Part shown: positions 8,421 to 41,041 of the stretch, one piece after another | Layout: each line of letters begins with the position of its first letter | How positions within the stretch are numbered: the stretch's first letter is position 1 | NCBI GenBank assembly: GCA_943327315.2 | Contig: CALPWQ020000009.1 | Location: 1 to 41,227, forward strand | Length of the DNA: 41,227 nucleotides | From: Chitinophaga pinensis | Lineage (GTDB): Bacteria > Bacteroidota > Bacteroidia > Flavobacteriales_D > Crocinitomicaceae | Reading direction: 5' to 3' | Position numbers and translations under genes: made by a program | The notes under the pieces: generated by a model | What the model saw: the letters and a program-made list of their open reading frames with translations, nothing else | What the model was told of the DNA's origin: nothing | Database searches by the model: none

Positions 8421-8733
8421 TTATTTCTTCACGTAGCGAAGGATTTACAAACTTCGAAATCGATGAATAAGGTTACCAATCCATGTGGCGATATCTGTAG
8501 AAAAGGCAATTGTCTGACTGACCAAAAAAGATTCGAATTTCACTCCTCAATTCAGAAATGCCGCATAAGGTAAAAATGCACTCTCCTTATATAGAAACGA
8601 GGGATTTTATAGTTCTCATGTAAGATTTTTCGCTCTTTAGCCTGTCCCGATTCTTCGGGGCTTCACACTCACTCTGAAAGATAAGCACAACCTAGATACA
8701 GTAAGAGTTGGAGAGCGAGTTTTAAGTGAAAAA

Positions 8734-8772
8734 GAAAAAGCGCCCCATCACTTTCGGAACTGCGCTTTTCTT
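8734..8772. terminator. Bidirectional-looking hairpin terminator
   Basis: GAAAAAGCGC ... GCGCTTTTC stem with flanking A/T runs. Confidence 0.5.
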
Positions 8773-8780
8773 TGTAGTGG

Positions 8781-8823
8781 AGAGGAGTATCGAATTATCG
8801 AACCTGATTTGGGAGGGGTTGGA
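8781..8823. repeat. Direct repeat DR1, copy 1 (43 bp)
   Basis: AGAGGAGTATCGAATTATCGAACCTGATTTGGGAGGGGTTGGA; one mismatch to 10238-10280. Confidence 0.85.
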
Positions 8824-8883
8824 ACAAGTTGAAGTTCTTGAATTTGGCTCTTTATAAGGGCGATACAAAGAAGTGGATTACTT

Positions 8884-10186: not shown

Positions 10187-10237
10187 AGTTTACGGCATAA
10201 AAAAACCTGAGCCAAATAACTCAGGTTTTCCTTGTAG
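10187..10237. repeat. Direct repeat DR2, copy A (51 bp; contains terminator hairpin)
   Basis: AGTTTACGGCATAAAAAAACCTGAGCCAAATAACTCAGGTTTTCCTTGTAG; two mismatches to 11013-11063. Confidence 0.9.
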
Positions 10238-10280
10238 AGAGGAGTATCGAATTATCGAACCTGATTTGGGAGGGCTTGGA
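10238..10280. repeat. Direct repeat DR1, copy 2 (43 bp), directly abutting DR2 copy A
   Basis: AGAGGAGTATCGAATTATCGAACCTGATTTGGGAGGGCTTGGA; one mismatch to 8781-8823. Confidence 0.85.
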
Positions 10281-10317
10281 GGAAATTGAATCTATTTATT
10301 AACCCAAAAGATTAAAG

Positions 10318-11012: not shown

Positions 11013-11060
11013 AGTTTACGGCATAAAAAAACCTGAGCCAAATGACTCAGGTTTTCCTAG

Positions 11061-11063
<3 letters not shown>
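11013..11063. repeat. Direct repeat DR2, copy B (51 bp), overlapping the 3' end of tRNA-fMet
   Basis: AGTTTACGGCATAAAAAAACCTGAGCCAAATGACTCAGGTTTTCCTAGTAG. Confidence 0.9.
11025..11056 (-). terminator. Rho-independent terminator of tRNA-fMet
   Basis: AACCTGAG / CTCAGGTT stem followed on the minus strand by a T run. Confidence 0.75.
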
Positions 11064-11133
<70 letters not shown>

Positions 11134-11162
11134 ATATATCTTTTATTGCCTATTTCAATTCA

Positions 11163-11236
11163 TTCTCGAACTTGCGTCCGTCAGCTGACGGATATGAGCC
11201 CGAGGAGCTACTCCCGATACTTCGGGACTCCACCCA
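11163..11236 (-). pseudogene. Degenerate tRNA-Met-like remnant with a hairpin in the D-arm region
   Basis: Plus-strand CTCGAACTTGCGTCCGTCAGCTGACGGATATGAGCCCGAGGAGCTACTCCCGATACTTCGGGACTCCACCC aligns by eye to the neighbouring tRNA-fMet, with TCCCGATACTTCGGGA at 11212-11227. Confidence 0.5.
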
Positions 11237-20628: not shown

Positions 20629-20900
20629 TCAAAAAAGTCCCAAATCCATTACAGGTGCTGAAAAAGGACCGTGACCAGTTGCTGGAGAATTCGATGCGAT
20701 CATTGTTCTACTTCCTTCATTGCAATAAAAAGATTTTTGACAACTGTTGGTGGGATTCATTTGATCAATCGTACTGACATAATACCAATCACTTTGAATT
20801 TTCTATGCAGTAATATCCAATATTGCAAATCCTTTTTTCGTAAGCTCAACATACTTGAGATGGGGATTTTCAAACGTTAAAAATCCACCAATATTAAAAA
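20629..20900 (-). pseudogene. Remnant of the C-terminus of a PhoD-like alkaline phosphatase
   Basis: Minus-strand translation LVFNIGGFLTFENPHLKYVELTKKGFAILDITA*KIQSDWYYVSTIDQMNPTNSCQKSFYCNEGSRTMIASNSPATGHGPFSAPVMDLGLF*. It matches the PHxKYVxLxxxGxxxLxxTxxxxQxDWYxVxTI pattern of PhoD-family C-termini, with an in-frame TAG and no start codon or N-terminal part. Confidence 0.65.
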
Positions 20901-21291
20901 CTAATTAATATGTTTCATATCAAGGGAAAATTAACTTTTGATAAAAAAATCATGCTCTTGAGCGTACTGGTGATAAATGAACATTACAAAAAAATACCAA
21001 TCAGAAATGTAAAAATCATCCAAAAAAACTCGTTAAAAACTTCCGATTGGAGGTGCTAAGGACGTTGAAATTTGGACGTTTCGCAGAAGTTTCTGGCCTC
21101 ATCTACGATACAAAGTATTTTTTTTTAATTTGATCATATCGCTTAAAATAAACACTTTTTTAAATTTTATTTAAACGCAATTTTATTGTATTTAAAAATC
21201 TTAACAATAGATGTTTATGAGAATTATATTTTTAATAGAAAACAAAAAAAATAAATCCACTAAAAAAATAATTTGTTTAATTTTTTTTCAA

Positions 21292-21306
21292 TTTTGTTAA
21301 ACAAAA
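21292..21306. promoter_or_regulatory. 15-bp palindrome upstream of the rhodopsin gene (possible operator)
   Basis: TTTTGTT-A-AACAAAA; perfect 7-bp arms, but in very A/T-rich DNA. Confidence 0.25.
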
Positions 21307-21408
21307 AGATCATGCACGCTGTTTTTATTTTTTAGATTTAACTGATTTTAACAAAAGGAGTATCCGAAAATCCTTAAAGAGTAGGGCTAACTAATTTAAT
21401 TTATTACT

Positions 21409-22125
21409 ATGGAACATTTAAAGATTGCCAGCGACAATTACGTTGCGTTCACGTTCTTTATTGGAACGATGGCCATGATGGCCGCCTCTGTTTTCTTCTT
21501 CTTTGAATTAAACAACACCTCAAAAAAATGGAGAACTTCAGTTCTTGTTTCGGGGTTAATCACCTTCATCGCAGCGGTCCACTACTACTACATGAGAGGG
21601 TACAACTTATCAACGGGAGATTCTCCAACTTTCTTCCGTTATGTAGACTGGATCTTAACAGTTCCGTTGATGTGTGTTGAATTCTACATCATTACAAAGA
21701 AGGCTGGAGCTAAAATTTCGCTTTTGTGGAAATTGATTTTTGCTTCATTGATCATGTTGGTTACAGGTTACTTCGGTGAAACAATCGACCGTGATAATAG
21801 CGTTCTTTGGGGTGTGCTTTCAGGTGCAGCTTATTTCTACATCGCATACCTCGTTTGGTTCGGTGAAGTGGCTAAACTAGCGCAAACAGCTGGAGCTCAA
21901 GTAGCAAAAGCAACACGTATTTTGGCGTGGTTCGTGCTTGTTGGTTGGGCGATTTACCCACTCGGGTACATCTTGGGTACTCCAGGTGGATTGTTCGGTA
22001 TCACACTTGTCGATGACGCTGCTGCTGCTGCTCATGCGATGGATATCGTTTACAACATTGCAGATGCCATCAACAAAATTGGATTTGGTTTGGTGATCTA
22101 CGCTTTGTCTAGAAGCGAAGACTAA
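21409..22125 (+). CDS. Microbial rhodopsin, proteorhodopsin/xanthorhodopsin-type proton pump
   Basis: Helix C RYVDWILTVPLMCVEFY (D80, T84, E91 = DTE motif; M88 at PR position 105), H58 (PR His75 equivalent), Schiff-base lysine K223 in YNIADAINKIGFGLVIY. Confidence 0.97.
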   Translation: MEHLKIASDNYVAFTFFIGTMAMMAASVFFFFELNNTSKKWRTSVLVSGLITFIAAVHYYYMRGYNLSTGDSPTFFRYVDWILTVPLMCVEFYIITKKAGAKISLLWKLIFASLIMLVTGYFGETIDRDNSVLWGVLSGAAYFYIAYLVWFGEVAKLAQTAGAQVAKATRILAWFVLVGWAIYPLGYILGTPGGLFGITLVDDAAAAAHAMDIVYNIADAINKIGFGLVIYALSRSED

Positions 22126-22156
22126 ACAAATTTTCTTAAAAGATTTTTAAATTCGG

Positions 22157-22195
22157 AAAAGGTGGATTTGCTTTAAGCTCTTCCACCTTTTTTTA
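22157..22195 (+). terminator. Rho-independent terminator between rhodopsin and crtY::blh
   Basis: AAAAGGTGGA ... TCCACCTTTT stem followed by T run. Confidence 0.8.
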
Positions 22196-22241
22196 TTTCC
22201 AGAAACTAAACGATAAACGCATTATCTATTGAAACTATACG

Positions 22242-24236
22242 GTGCAAAACGATACACAGACATATGATATCATCTTTGTTGGAGCGGGTGCATCAAGCTC
22301 CCTTATACTTTTTCAACTTAAAAAAAGGAATCTACTCAATAAATTGTCGGTACTTGTTGTTGATTCCGAATTAAAGACAGGAAGCGATAAAACATTTTGT
22401 TTTTGGGCTGAAGAAGAATCTAGAATGGCCAAAGAACTTGATTTTTTGATCAAACACTCTTGGAAAAGCATTGTCGACAGTTGCGGTGACATCAAAGAAA
22501 TTCTCCCCTACAAATACCACCATATAGACAGCCTTGACTTGTACAATTACGTTCGTGAGATAGAAGGCGATAGCCACTTCGATCGATTAAATGCTAGGGT
22601 AGGTGCTGTTTCGCGGGATGAACAGGGTCCATACATCCTGGTCGATGAGAAAATCTTTCGGGGCAGAACTATTTTTGATTCACGAACACCAGTTTTTCAA
22701 AAAACAGCAAAAGGTCAAGAACACCTCTACCAAAGTTTCATAGGATGGGTTATTGAGACAGAACAAGATCTTCCCGAGAGTGATTCATTCCGTTTAATGG
22801 ACTTCGATATTGAGCAAAATGGGTTTACTCAATTTATGTATGTGCTTCCATTTTCAAAGAACAAGGCCTTAATTGAGGTCACGCGTTTTGGAAACGAACC
22901 TATAGAAACAACAGGTGCAGAAGCGCTTCTTCAAGAGTATGCCAACAAAAATTATGGGGATTTCAAAATAGTGTCACACGAGGTCGGATGTATTCCGATG
23001 AGTAATTTTGAGATTGAACGAAATATTGGTTCAGGGATTTTTCCCATTGGCGCAAAGGGGGGGCAAATTAAACCGAGCACCGGGTATGCGTTTAAAAACA
23101 TGTATGAACAATCATTGGTTTTAGCAGATCGCATAGAAAATGACATGTTGTCTTTGCAAACTTTGTTACAAAAAAATAAATCTACACCCAAACGCTTTGC
23201 CTTTTATGACTCCATTCTGTTGACCATATTAGGCTCTAGACCTGAAAAAGGAAAATCAATTTTTCTCGCATTATTCCAGAAAAATGAAACCAAGGTGGTC
23301 TTGAAATTTTTGGATGAAAAAACGACCATTTGGGAGGAGGTTTTATTGTTTTCAAGACTTCCGCTAGTGCCATTTTTAAGCGCTTTGATTCAATTGTTTC
23401 TCCATTCAAGGTCTTTTAGACCGACCATGCTTATTGTCATTTGCTCCATATTATTTGTGTTAGGAAATCATTCTGTAGCTCAGGATATTCTTGGCTACGG
23501 ACTTCTTTTGATTGGTTTTGTCACAGTAGGAATTCCGCATGGGGCAATCGATCATCTCATAGAAAGTGGCAATTGGGAATTGAAAGGAATCGCAAAATTC
23601 TCATTGAACTACATCTCCAAGGCCCTCATCATGATGTTCCTTTGGATGTTGTCTCCACTGCTTGCCTTGCTCTTTTTTCTATTGTTTTCGAGTTGGCACT
23701 TTGGACAAACAGACGGAAAAAATTGGCGTTTTTCAAACCTTACTTCTTTCCTTTGGGGAACCTCCGTATTGATCTACATTCTTGGAACACACACAAAGGA
23801 AACAGCGGATATTCTCAGCGCTATTGATAGTCATTTTTTCAACCTTGCAATTCCATTTTGGTCTTTATTCCCCTGGATTATTGTTGCACTTATAACGAAA
23901 CGCACATCTTTTGTTCTCACGCTCATTTGGTTGCTTCTATCCAGTCAACTTCCATTGATTTTAGCATTCGGAATTTATTTTGTTGGTCAACACAGCCTGT
24001 CCAGTTGGTCTCATTCCTCTGAATACCTTAAACTGTCCAACAAATCCATGTGGATGCACTCACTCCCATTTCATTTAGGGGCTTGGGCCTTGTTGGCAAT
24101 CACCATGGTATTCAATACATTTTTCATTCAAACGACGGATGCTGAGGTATGGGGAATTTTCTTCATTTTTATTGCGTGCATTAGTTTCCCCCATGTCATT
24201 TGGATGCATAAGTTATACACGAGAAATTCCTTTTGA
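22242..24236 (+). CDS. crtY-blh: Fusion protein: lycopene beta-cyclase (CrtY-like, ~aa 1-385) + Brp/Blh-type beta-carotene 15,15'-dioxygenase (~aa 396-664)
   Basis: N-terminal Rossmann YDIIFVGAGASSSLILFQL, TFCFWAEEE, FDSRT, QSFIGWVIETE, MDFDIEQNGFTQFMYVLPFSKNKALIEVTRF, GCIPMSN, IGAKGGQIKPSTGYAFKNM (CrtY). C-terminal GIPHGAIDH, SSWHFGQTD, YFVGQHSLSSWSH, SFPHVIWMH in a multi-helix membrane domain (Brp/Blh). GTG start. Confidence 0.92.
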   Translation: MQNDTQTYDIIFVGAGASSSLILFQLKKRNLLNKLSVLVVDSELKTGSDKTFCFWAEEESRMAKELDFLIKHSWKSIVDSCGDIKEILPYKYHHIDSLDLYNYVREIEGDSHFDRLNARVGAVSRDEQGPYILVDEKIFRGRTIFDSRTPVFQKTAKGQEHLYQSFIGWVIETEQDLPESDSFRLMDFDIEQNGFTQFMYVLPFSKNKALIEVTRFGNEPIETTGAEALLQEYANKNYGDFKIVSHEVGCIPMSNFEIERNIGSGIFPIGAKGGQIKPSTGYAFKNMYEQSLVLADRIENDMLSLQTLLQKNKSTPKRFAFYDSILLTILGSRPEKGKSIFLALFQKNETKVVLKFLDEKTTIWEEVLLFSRLPLVPFLSALIQLFLHSRSFRPTMLIVICSILFVLGNHSVAQDILGYGLLLIGFVTVGIPHGAIDHLIESGNWELKGIAKFSLNYISKALIMMFLWMLSPLLALLFFLLFSSWHFGQTDGKNWRFSNLTSFLWGTSVLIYILGTHTKETADILSAIDSHFFNLAIPFWSLFPWIIVALITKRTSFVLTLIWLLLSSQLPLILAFGIYFVGQHSLSSWSHSSEYLKLSNKSMWMHSLPFHLGAWALLAITMVFNTFFIQTTDAEVWGIFFIFIACISFPHVIWMHKLYTRNSF

Positions 24237-24337
24237 CCCATCTCATAGCAAATCATTCTGCAACACTTTTCTAAAATAACTTCGGTGCAATAAAGCTTGA
24301 AGTCGATTTTTCAATATTTCGTATCTTCGCACCCCTT

Positions 24338-24409
24338 AGCTCCGTAGTTCAATGGATAGAATAAAAGTTTCCTAAACTTTAGATACAGGTTCGATCCCTG
24401 TCGGAGCTA
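24338..24409 (+). tRNA. tRNA-Arg (anticodon CCT)
   Basis: AGCTCCGTAGTTCAATGGATAGAATAAAAGTTTCCTAAACTTTAGATACAGGTTCGATCCCTGTCGGAGCTA. 7-bp acceptor, AAAGT/ACTTT anticodon stem, ACAGG/CCTGT T-stem. Confidence 0.93.
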
Positions 24410-24727
24410 CTTCTTTTTGACCTTTTAGGTCAAAAGACAAAAGACTCTTCCGCTAATGCGGAATCAAAGACAAAAGACCGCTTCGCTCAAAGACTTGTGC
24501 TTACTTCGAACGCTGAAATTCGTGTATTCGAGTGCCTCACGTGTTCACCGCGGTTGAGCCACCATGAACTTCAACTCGTAACTCGTCATTAGTAACTCGT
24601 AACTAAAACACCCAAGGTGCCGCTACGCTCTTAGAATGTTGACTGATTCATTCTTCACTCTTAATTTTTAATTTTTAATTCCCCACCCCCTTTAATTTTC
24701 GTTCCTTTGTAGCCGCAATTCAAGTCA

Positions 24728-25603
24728 ATGTCGCACAAATCAGGTTTCGTAAATATTGTAGGTAGTCCAAACGTGGGGAAATCAACCCTCATGAATCGAC
24801 TCGTAGGTGAAAAATTGTCCATCGTGACATCAAAGGCACAAACGACACGCCACCGCATTCTCGGAATTGTCAACGATGAGAATTATCAAATTGTGTTTTC
24901 TGACACTCCCGGGGTGGTCAATGCAGCGTACAAACTGCACGAGACAATGATGGAGTATGTGAATTCTTCCTTACAAGATGCTGATGTGCTCTTGTTCATC
25001 ACTGACACGAAGGAGAACAGCATGAATCACGAAGAAACCTTGGAGAAAATAAAAAAAATCAAGGTGCCCGTGATTTGCTTGATCAACAAGATCGATTTAA
25101 GTGATCAAGAAGCCATGGAGGAACGGGTTCAATACTGGCACACTGTATTGCCAAATGCCATGATCCTTCCTGTTTCTGCATTGCATGGATTCAACCTTGA
25201 ACCTTTGTGGGCTAAAATCTTGGAGCTCGTGCCAGAAAGCCCTGCATACTACGATAAAGAAGAACTATCGGATCGACCAATGCGTTTTTTCATTTCAGAA
25301 ATTATCCGCGAAAAAATATTCATCCACTGCGACAAGGAAGTGCCTTACAGCTGTCAGGTGGAAATTGAAGAATACAAAGAAGAACCAGAAATTACACGCA
25401 TTCGCGCGGTGGTCATCGTAGAACGCGACTCTCAAAAAGGCATCCTCATTGGGAAAGGTGGAGAAATGCTGAAGCGAGTAGGTCGCGATGCGCGCAAGGA
25501 AATAGAAAAATTCATCGATCAAAAAGTCTTCCTCGAAACATTCATCAAAGTGGACAAGGACTGGAGATCAACGGCAAATAAATTAAAGAAATACGGATAC
25601 TAA
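24728..25603 (+). CDS. era: GTPase Era
   Basis: [45 protein letters not shown]-terminal KH domain IGKGGEMLKRVGRDARKEIE. Confidence 0.97.
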   Translation: MSHKSGFVNIVGSPNVGKSTLMNRLVGEKLSIVTSKAQTTRHRILGIVNDENYQIVFSDTPGVVNAAYKLHETMMEYVNSSLQDADVLLFITDTKENSMNHEETLEKIKKIKVPVICLINKIDLSDQEAMEERVQYWHTVLPNAMILPVSALHGFNLEPLWAKILELVPESPAYYDKEELSDRPMRFFISEIIREKIFIHCDKEVPYSCQVEIEEYKEEPEITRIRAVVIVERDSQKGILIGKGGEMLKRVGRDARKEIEKFIDQKVFLETFIKVDKDWRSTANKLKKYGY

Positions 25604-40210: not shown

Positions 40211-41041
40211 ATGAAACATTTTCCTCAAGTTTTTAAAAAGATGATTATGAAAAAAGGAATGATTTTCTTCTTGTCGGCAGCAATGACCGTTGCCCTTACC
40301 TCTTGTGGTACCGGAGGATTGAAAGGGAATACAGAAAAAGAGACCAAAACACAAAGTGAATTTAAAGATGAAAGCAATTTTGAGAGCAGAATGTTGGCCC
40401 TTGATCAGAATGAAAGTTTGCTAATCGCCAATAGTTTAAAGTATCACAACAACGCGGGCTCTTCGGAGGAGGTGACTGCATTTCTTGATGAAAAGCAAAA
40501 CATCGTAAAGCTCGAAGAGGCTTATCTCGAGGCTGAAACACAGAATTTTAGCAATGTCACTTTTTATCTTGAAAATGGAAAGAAATTCGCGACACGTCAA
40601 GTTATTCGTGAAACGACGTTGAATGTTCCCCTGTACAAAGAGATTATTACGTACTACGACAAGTCAGAAAAACCACTTTATGCTAAGTTGCGTCAATCTC
40701 AGTATGAAATTGAGCTGGAAAATTTGGCTTTTGAACCAACAAAAGCAACAAACGTGTCTGCTTCTCGTGCAATTCGTGCATTGAACCAAGAAAAAGAATT
40801 TCAAACTACTTTTCAAGGGCTAGCTTACGATGGAACACTCAAATACATTATCGTTGGGGATACTGAAGAAGAGGGGTTTGCATCTACACTTTCCGTTCAA
40901 CATCAAGAAGGGGATATCAAGAAATTATTTCAAGATGAGGAAGGTATGTTAGGAGTTCCAATTGAAATTCAATACGAAAGAATGATTGATCAGTCTGGCA
41001 TGGAGTTTCAAGTTTTGATCTCAGCGAAAATAAAAAAGTAA
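40211..41041 (+). CDS. Hypothetical lipoprotein
   Basis: MKKGMIFFLSAAMTVALTSCGTGG lipobox; no recognised domain. Confidence 0.7.
   Translation: MKHFPQVFKKMIMKKGMIFFLSAAMTVALTSCGTGGLKGNTEKETKTQSEFKDESNFESRMLALDQNESLLIANSLKYHNNAGSSEEVTAFLDEKQNIVKLEEAYLEAETQNFSNVTFYLENGKKFATRQVIRETTLNVPLYKEIITYYDKSEKPLYAKLRQSQYEIELENLAFEPTKATNVSASRAIRALNQEKEFQTTFQGLAYDGTLKYIIVGDTEEEGFASTLSVQHQEGDIKKLFQDEEGMLGVPIEIQYERMIDQSGMEFQVLISAKIKK

Follow-up and report, generated by a model that had tools for sequence, protein, structure and literature searches.

Rhodopsin genes that adjoin a retinal-forming enzyme, with the other carotenoid genes elsewhere in the chromosome, are ordinary in flavobacteria; Dokdonia MED134 and other members of the group carry rhodopsin and blh without other crt genes nearby (PMC3587595). 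A second related system is known from the protist Thecamonas trahens, which has a four-domain CrtI-CrtB-CrtYcd-Blh protein (PMC10016063). The locus studied here shares features with both. As in the flavobacterial pair, rhodopsin adjoins a retinal-forming enzyme at a distance from the other carotenoid genes, an arrangement that the preliminary description had pointed out. The difference is that the flavobacterial systems have a stand-alone blh and a crtY that serves the host pathway (PMC3587595), whereas the present locus joins crtY to blh in a host whose own cyclase is non-homologous. The T. trahens protein also has a C-terminal Blh on a carotenoid polypeptide that includes a lycopene cyclase, and horizontal transfer was invoked for it. 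However, it is eukaryotic, contains four domains and uses a CrtYcd-type cyclase, whereas the present protein is bacterial and consists of two domains, with a flavin-fold CrtY (PMC10016063). No earlier report of a bacterial CrtY::Blh fusion was found in the open-access papers searched. The unusual part of the locus is thus the fusion, as rhodopsin-blh pairs with remote crt genes are already known.

The analysed window (41,227 nucleotides) is contig 9 of a 3.04-Mb draft genome (G000) that is 97% complete. As described before, rhodopsin (21409-22125) and crtY::blh (22242-24236) are adjacent on the forward strand, in the same orientation, and both are clear members of their Pfam families. The first gene encodes a proteorhodopsin-type proton pump of 238 amino acids (PF01036, 144 bits, above cut-off), and the nearest solved chains (9jov/9jou) are labelled ‘Proteorhodopsin’. 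The equivalents of D97/T101/E108 (DTE), K231 and D227 as well as His75 are all present, and the spectral-tuning position (Met105 equivalent) is occupied by Met. Given the Asp-Thr-Glu motif of pumps, the lysine that binds retinal and the Met at the tuning site, the protein is expected to pump protons outward, and it presumably absorbs green light. Rhodopsins with the pump motif and the retinal lysine were also encoded in two genomes in which Blh was not found (G023, locus L053, and G072, locus L056; 88% and 97% complete). These may be compared with Aurantimicrobium minutum, a retinal producer in which no blh is known (PMC7734400). In the fragmented assembly G018 (610 contigs) the fusion was present (G018:C58; L006, L077) and rhodopsin was not found.

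The second gene encodes the CrtY::Blh fusion in one open frame of 664 amino acids, with PF05834 at residues 9-381 and PF15461 at residues 425-658. Each half matches its family, the CrtY/CrtYm lycopene cyclases and the Brp/Blh beta-carotene 15,15'-dioxygenases, over the full length: the CrtY half scores 151.6 bits against PF05834, above the Pfam cut-off, and the Blh half scores 120 bits against TIGR03753, for which the curated cut-off is 95. The CrtY half falls outside the unfused CrtY sequences sampled (support 96/99) and stays under the NCBIfam lycopene cyclase cut-offs (TIGR01790, 83.8 vs 209.5; TIGR01789, 54.2 vs 215.2), so that for this divergent family relative we infer cyclase activity. 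Residues of the active-site type are invariant among 22 fusions, namely H433, D437, H486, H517, H584 and H651 in the Blh half, together with E212. An AlphaFold2 model (mean pLDDT 78.9) shows two folded domains: a fold of the flavin type comes first and membrane helices follow. The best Foldseek matches for the CrtY half are geranylgeranyl reductases and flavin monooxygenases, and a sequence search of the PDB with the fusion gave no match. The fusion is not a base-calling artefact, since the open fused frame recurs in many genomes: 15 of the 100 searched, G000 included (the G045 copy is truncated at a contig edge), and further named contigs.

The preliminary description stated that no other carotenoid genes are near the pair and that it looks like a unit that plugs into a host already making lycopene or carotenoids. 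The first statement was confirmed, and genes of the host pathway do exist elsewhere. No crtE was recognised in the list of open reading frames of the window. A genome search located crtI-crtB-idi on contig 61 and crtD, which scores above its NCBIfam cut-off, on contig 1; contig 29 carries a lycopene cyclase of the CrtYcd type, preceded by a crtZ-like open reading frame. The latter matched no library model and was named by eye from its histidine motifs and position. The pair is nevertheless more than the end piece that the host pathway lacks, since the host owns the non-homologous CrtYcd and only Blh is non-redundant; a second Blh was not found in G000, which has one copy. Neither a conserved linkage to a complete crt operon nor a second crtY/blh set was encountered, although a second cyclase does exist. 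An initial search with PF05834 suggested that the genus has no lycopene cyclase outside the fusion, and this was overturned by a search for CarR/CrtYcd: CrtYcd is present in G000 and in 25 of the 26 genomes of the genus.

In the sister species G010 the equivalent cluster is cruF-crtZ-crtYcd, with cruF and crtZ-like genes preceding crtYcd. CruF was not seen in G000, where only 118 bases of contig 29 precede the crtZ-like gene. The host gene set is like that of Algoriphagus and other makers of monocyclic xanthophylls (PMC10784355) and resembles the flexixanthin-type pathway of Bacteroidetes, which uses CrtYcd with CruF, CrtD and CrtZ (PMC10784355; PMC2889829). A single-peptide CrtYcd was reported to be a monocyclase (PMC2889829). 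A flavobacterial CrtY-type cyclase expressed alone gave beta-carotene, and together with CruF the flux was drawn from beta-carotene to 1'-hydroxy-gamma-carotene (PMC11855829). The host CrtYcd cluster probably makes monocyclic xanthophylls. The flexixanthin-type pathway has no route to retinal (PMC10784355; PMC2889829), and the fusion would branch off from it at lycopene.

The distribution of the two cyclases was compared in 42 genomes. A full or near-full CrtY is encoded in 21 of them, of which G045 (59% complete) was left out of the comparison. CrtY and CrtYcd occur together in 16 of these 21, and all 16 contain Blh, as a fusion with CrtY in 14 and next to it in two. Blh is absent from all four genomes with CrtY but without CrtYcd (Fisher p 2e-4 for the association, uncorrected for relatedness). 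Among the genomes searched, CrtY as a second cyclase thus occurs only coupled to Blh. A dedicated CrtY is not obligatory, since G047 and G075 combine rhodopsin, Blh and CrtYcd but lack a full-length CrtY. In G086 (L025) and G095 (L017), crtY lies unfused next to blh in a different reading frame, possibly the arrangement that preceded the fusion.

We consider it fairly probable that the locus provides a branch from lycopene that is dedicated to retinal and insulated from the monocyclic xanthophyll pathway of the host. It would encode an outward light-driven proton pump and a lycopene-to-retinal polypeptide, the latter made from a separate transcript or by partial read-through. The N-terminal CrtY-type half would close both rings, converting lycopene to beta-carotene, and the membrane half (Blh) would cleave beta-carotene to retinal for the rhodopsin. 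As one polypeptide, the enzyme may keep beta-carotene from the host hydroxylase and hydratase and so avoid competition for the intermediate. We infer bicyclase activity, channelling and expression of the fusion from its sequence. It seems unlikely that the locus is instead an ordinary flavobacterial rhodopsin-blh pair in which the fusion is a neutral stitching of neighbours and the CrtY half a redundant spare for CrtYcd. Such pairs with remote crt genes are known (PMC3587595), the host does have a second cyclase, and the unfused neighbours in G086 and G095 fit this explanation, but both halves are under purifying selection (dN/dS 0.12-0.22 between sister species) and the fusion stays intact in 22 genomes across deep divergence (34-92% identity). 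The restriction of CrtY to Blh-coupled forms in CrtYcd-bearing genomes is also not what a redundant spare would give.

The two genes were also described as looking like a portable two-gene unit, and their surroundings bear on this. The phosphatase remnant reported to the left of the pair is real: positions 20647-20895 on the reverse strand encode a decayed piece of a PhoD-like secreted alkaline phosphatase, which corresponds to residues 420-502 of the intact copy at the same position in G010 (88% identity in an 83-residue alignment that contains one in-frame stop; tblastn E 2.6e-48). The G010 copy is an intact open reading frame of 602 amino acids that matches PF09423 and PF16655. The AT-rich leader of the rhodopsin gene (21119-21408, forward strand) is kept in G010 within a conserved 3.5-kb block (21119-24619; blastn identity 90.8%). 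The tRNA-Arg on the right was also found where it had been described: ARAGORN detected tRNA-Arg(CCT) at 24338-24410 on the forward strand, and synteny with congeners supports it as the right boundary. It stays beside the fusion in G010 and G024. In five congeners whose site lacks the cassette (G005, G021, G014, G011 and G013), tRNA-Met and tRNA-Arg are separated by 45-171 bases upstream of era, whereas in G000 tRNA-Met(CAT) lies at 11060-11133 on the reverse strand, 13.2 kb from tRNA-Arg, with the cassette in between, so that the site was opened or rearranged in the lineage of the window. Comparison with relatives that lack rhodopsin at this place, as had been proposed, thus revealed a closed site in several congeners and close congeners without the cassette. 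The closest relative without the genes (G004) has neither the cassette nor tRNA-Arg upstream of era.

Some further observations concern this region. Dispersed repeats at 8662-8857, 10197-10290 and 11023-11209 of the window recur in G004 (L120) and G010 (L137), and in each of these relatives one copy overlaps a small open reading frame that looks GIY-YIG-like by eye. A homologue of a lipoprotein, recognised by unaligned resemblance, is located at 40211-41041, far to the right in the window; in congeners it lies beside tRNA-Met/tRNA-Arg. Between positions 21409-25603 and G024 (L136), synonymous divergence is 0.11 for Era and 0.57 for rhodopsin, and this gap suggests local recombination at the locus.

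The gap of 116 bases between rhodopsin and the fusion contains a hairpin with a U-tail that resembles an intrinsic terminator (22155-22193, forward strand; -18.1 kcal/mol, z -4.8 vs shuffles), with the same stem in G000, G010 and G024. It was found by direct folding, its loop exceeding the limit of the packaged terminator scan. Strong transcription of rhodopsin with weak read-through into the fusion would be the likely outcome. That rhodopsin and fusion travelled together as a fixed, mobile two-gene phototrophy cassette is quite improbable. The pair and tRNA-Arg are kept together in G000, G010 and G024, the tandem of rhodopsin and fusion is also present in G037, G040, L035, L036 and L038, and the short tRNA-Met/tRNA-Arg distance in congeners would suit such an insertion. 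On the other hand, the fusion precedes rhodopsin in G006, the genes are convergent in G092/G096 and divergent in L039/L040/L042, and they are on separate contigs in G013, G017, G046, G085 and G098. Furthermore, identities within the same genomes are out of step, with up to 92% for rhodopsin and 35-46% for the fusion. We recognised no integrase when reading the open reading frames of the window, and none of the usual marks of an integrative or mobile element (an integrase, a transposase, a duplicated tRNA end, carriage of the fusion on plasmids or phages) was found. Integration targeted to the tRNA was rejected for lack of a duplicated tRNA end, of which only a single copy was seen. Carriage by a mobile element gained no support either: phages and viral contigs gave no match, and plasmids contained no fusion, only unfused CrtY-like matches below 31% identity. 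The portable unit can therefore be retained in part. The genes are portable, in that the fusion was probably transferred horizontally (see below), but since order and linkage vary among relatives and a conserved terminator separates the genes, rhodopsin and the fusion form a recurring association and not a fixed two-gene unit.

The fused CrtY halves of 22 fusions form one clade against unfused CrtY, with the support given above, and the fused Blh halves form one clade as well (89/93, below the strict threshold). Because each half forms one clade and the subclades of both trees largely match, the fusion probably happened once and was later inherited as a single gene. In the proposed comparison with the species phylogeny, the fusion tree was in strong conflict with genus and family. 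Grouping of the fusions by genus (AU p 0.0004, lnL difference 179) and by family (p 1e-12) was rejected, and because of this the fusion has probably spread horizontally among aquatic Bacteroidota, including hosts that already owned CrtYcd. With 46% identity, the G000 fusion is closer to that of G101/L036 (Era 50%) than to those of congeners (36-39%; Era 84-86%), and it clusters with L034, L035, L036 and L037 and not with these congeners; Era of L034, L036 and L037 is 50-70% identical to that of the window. A comparison of fourfold sites, meant to date the rhodopsin transfer, reached saturation for relatives more distant than G010 and G024. A purely vertical history, in which the fusion evolved very fast and was lost many times, is highly improbable: the fusion does evolve much faster than rhodopsin, and in the poorly resolved rhodopsin tree monophyly within the family could not be rejected (p 0.09-0.25), but the conflict of the fusion tree, the 92% rhodopsin identity in L036 and L038 despite an Era identity of 50-51%, and the minimum of 6-9 gains or losses of the fusion on the tree of Era, a single marker, all argue against it.

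Taken together, we tentatively propose that one polypeptide encoded here converts lycopene to retinal, that this synthase has a single origin and spread horizontally among aquatic Bacteroidota, and that its insulated branch permits rhodopsin phototrophy in hosts that devote their own cyclase (CrtYcd, with CruF) to monocyclic xanthophylls. The fusion would have arisen from neighbouring crtY and blh and would then have moved horizontally, sometimes near rhodopsin and sometimes not. It would plug into lycopene-making hosts with their own CrtYcd in a cruF-crtZ-crtYcd cluster, as seen in the sister species and congeners.

Accounts of how rhodopsin phototrophy is gained usually consider the acquisition of rhodopsin and blh. 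The locus suggests that bicyclic beta-carotene can be limiting as well, a problem that would be solved by bringing along a dedicated cyclase joined to the enzyme that cleaves its product. With the fusion, metabolic channelling in retinal synthesis can be tested clearly. A further caution is that crtY-type genes of rhodopsin-bearing genomes are not necessarily part of the pigment pathway.
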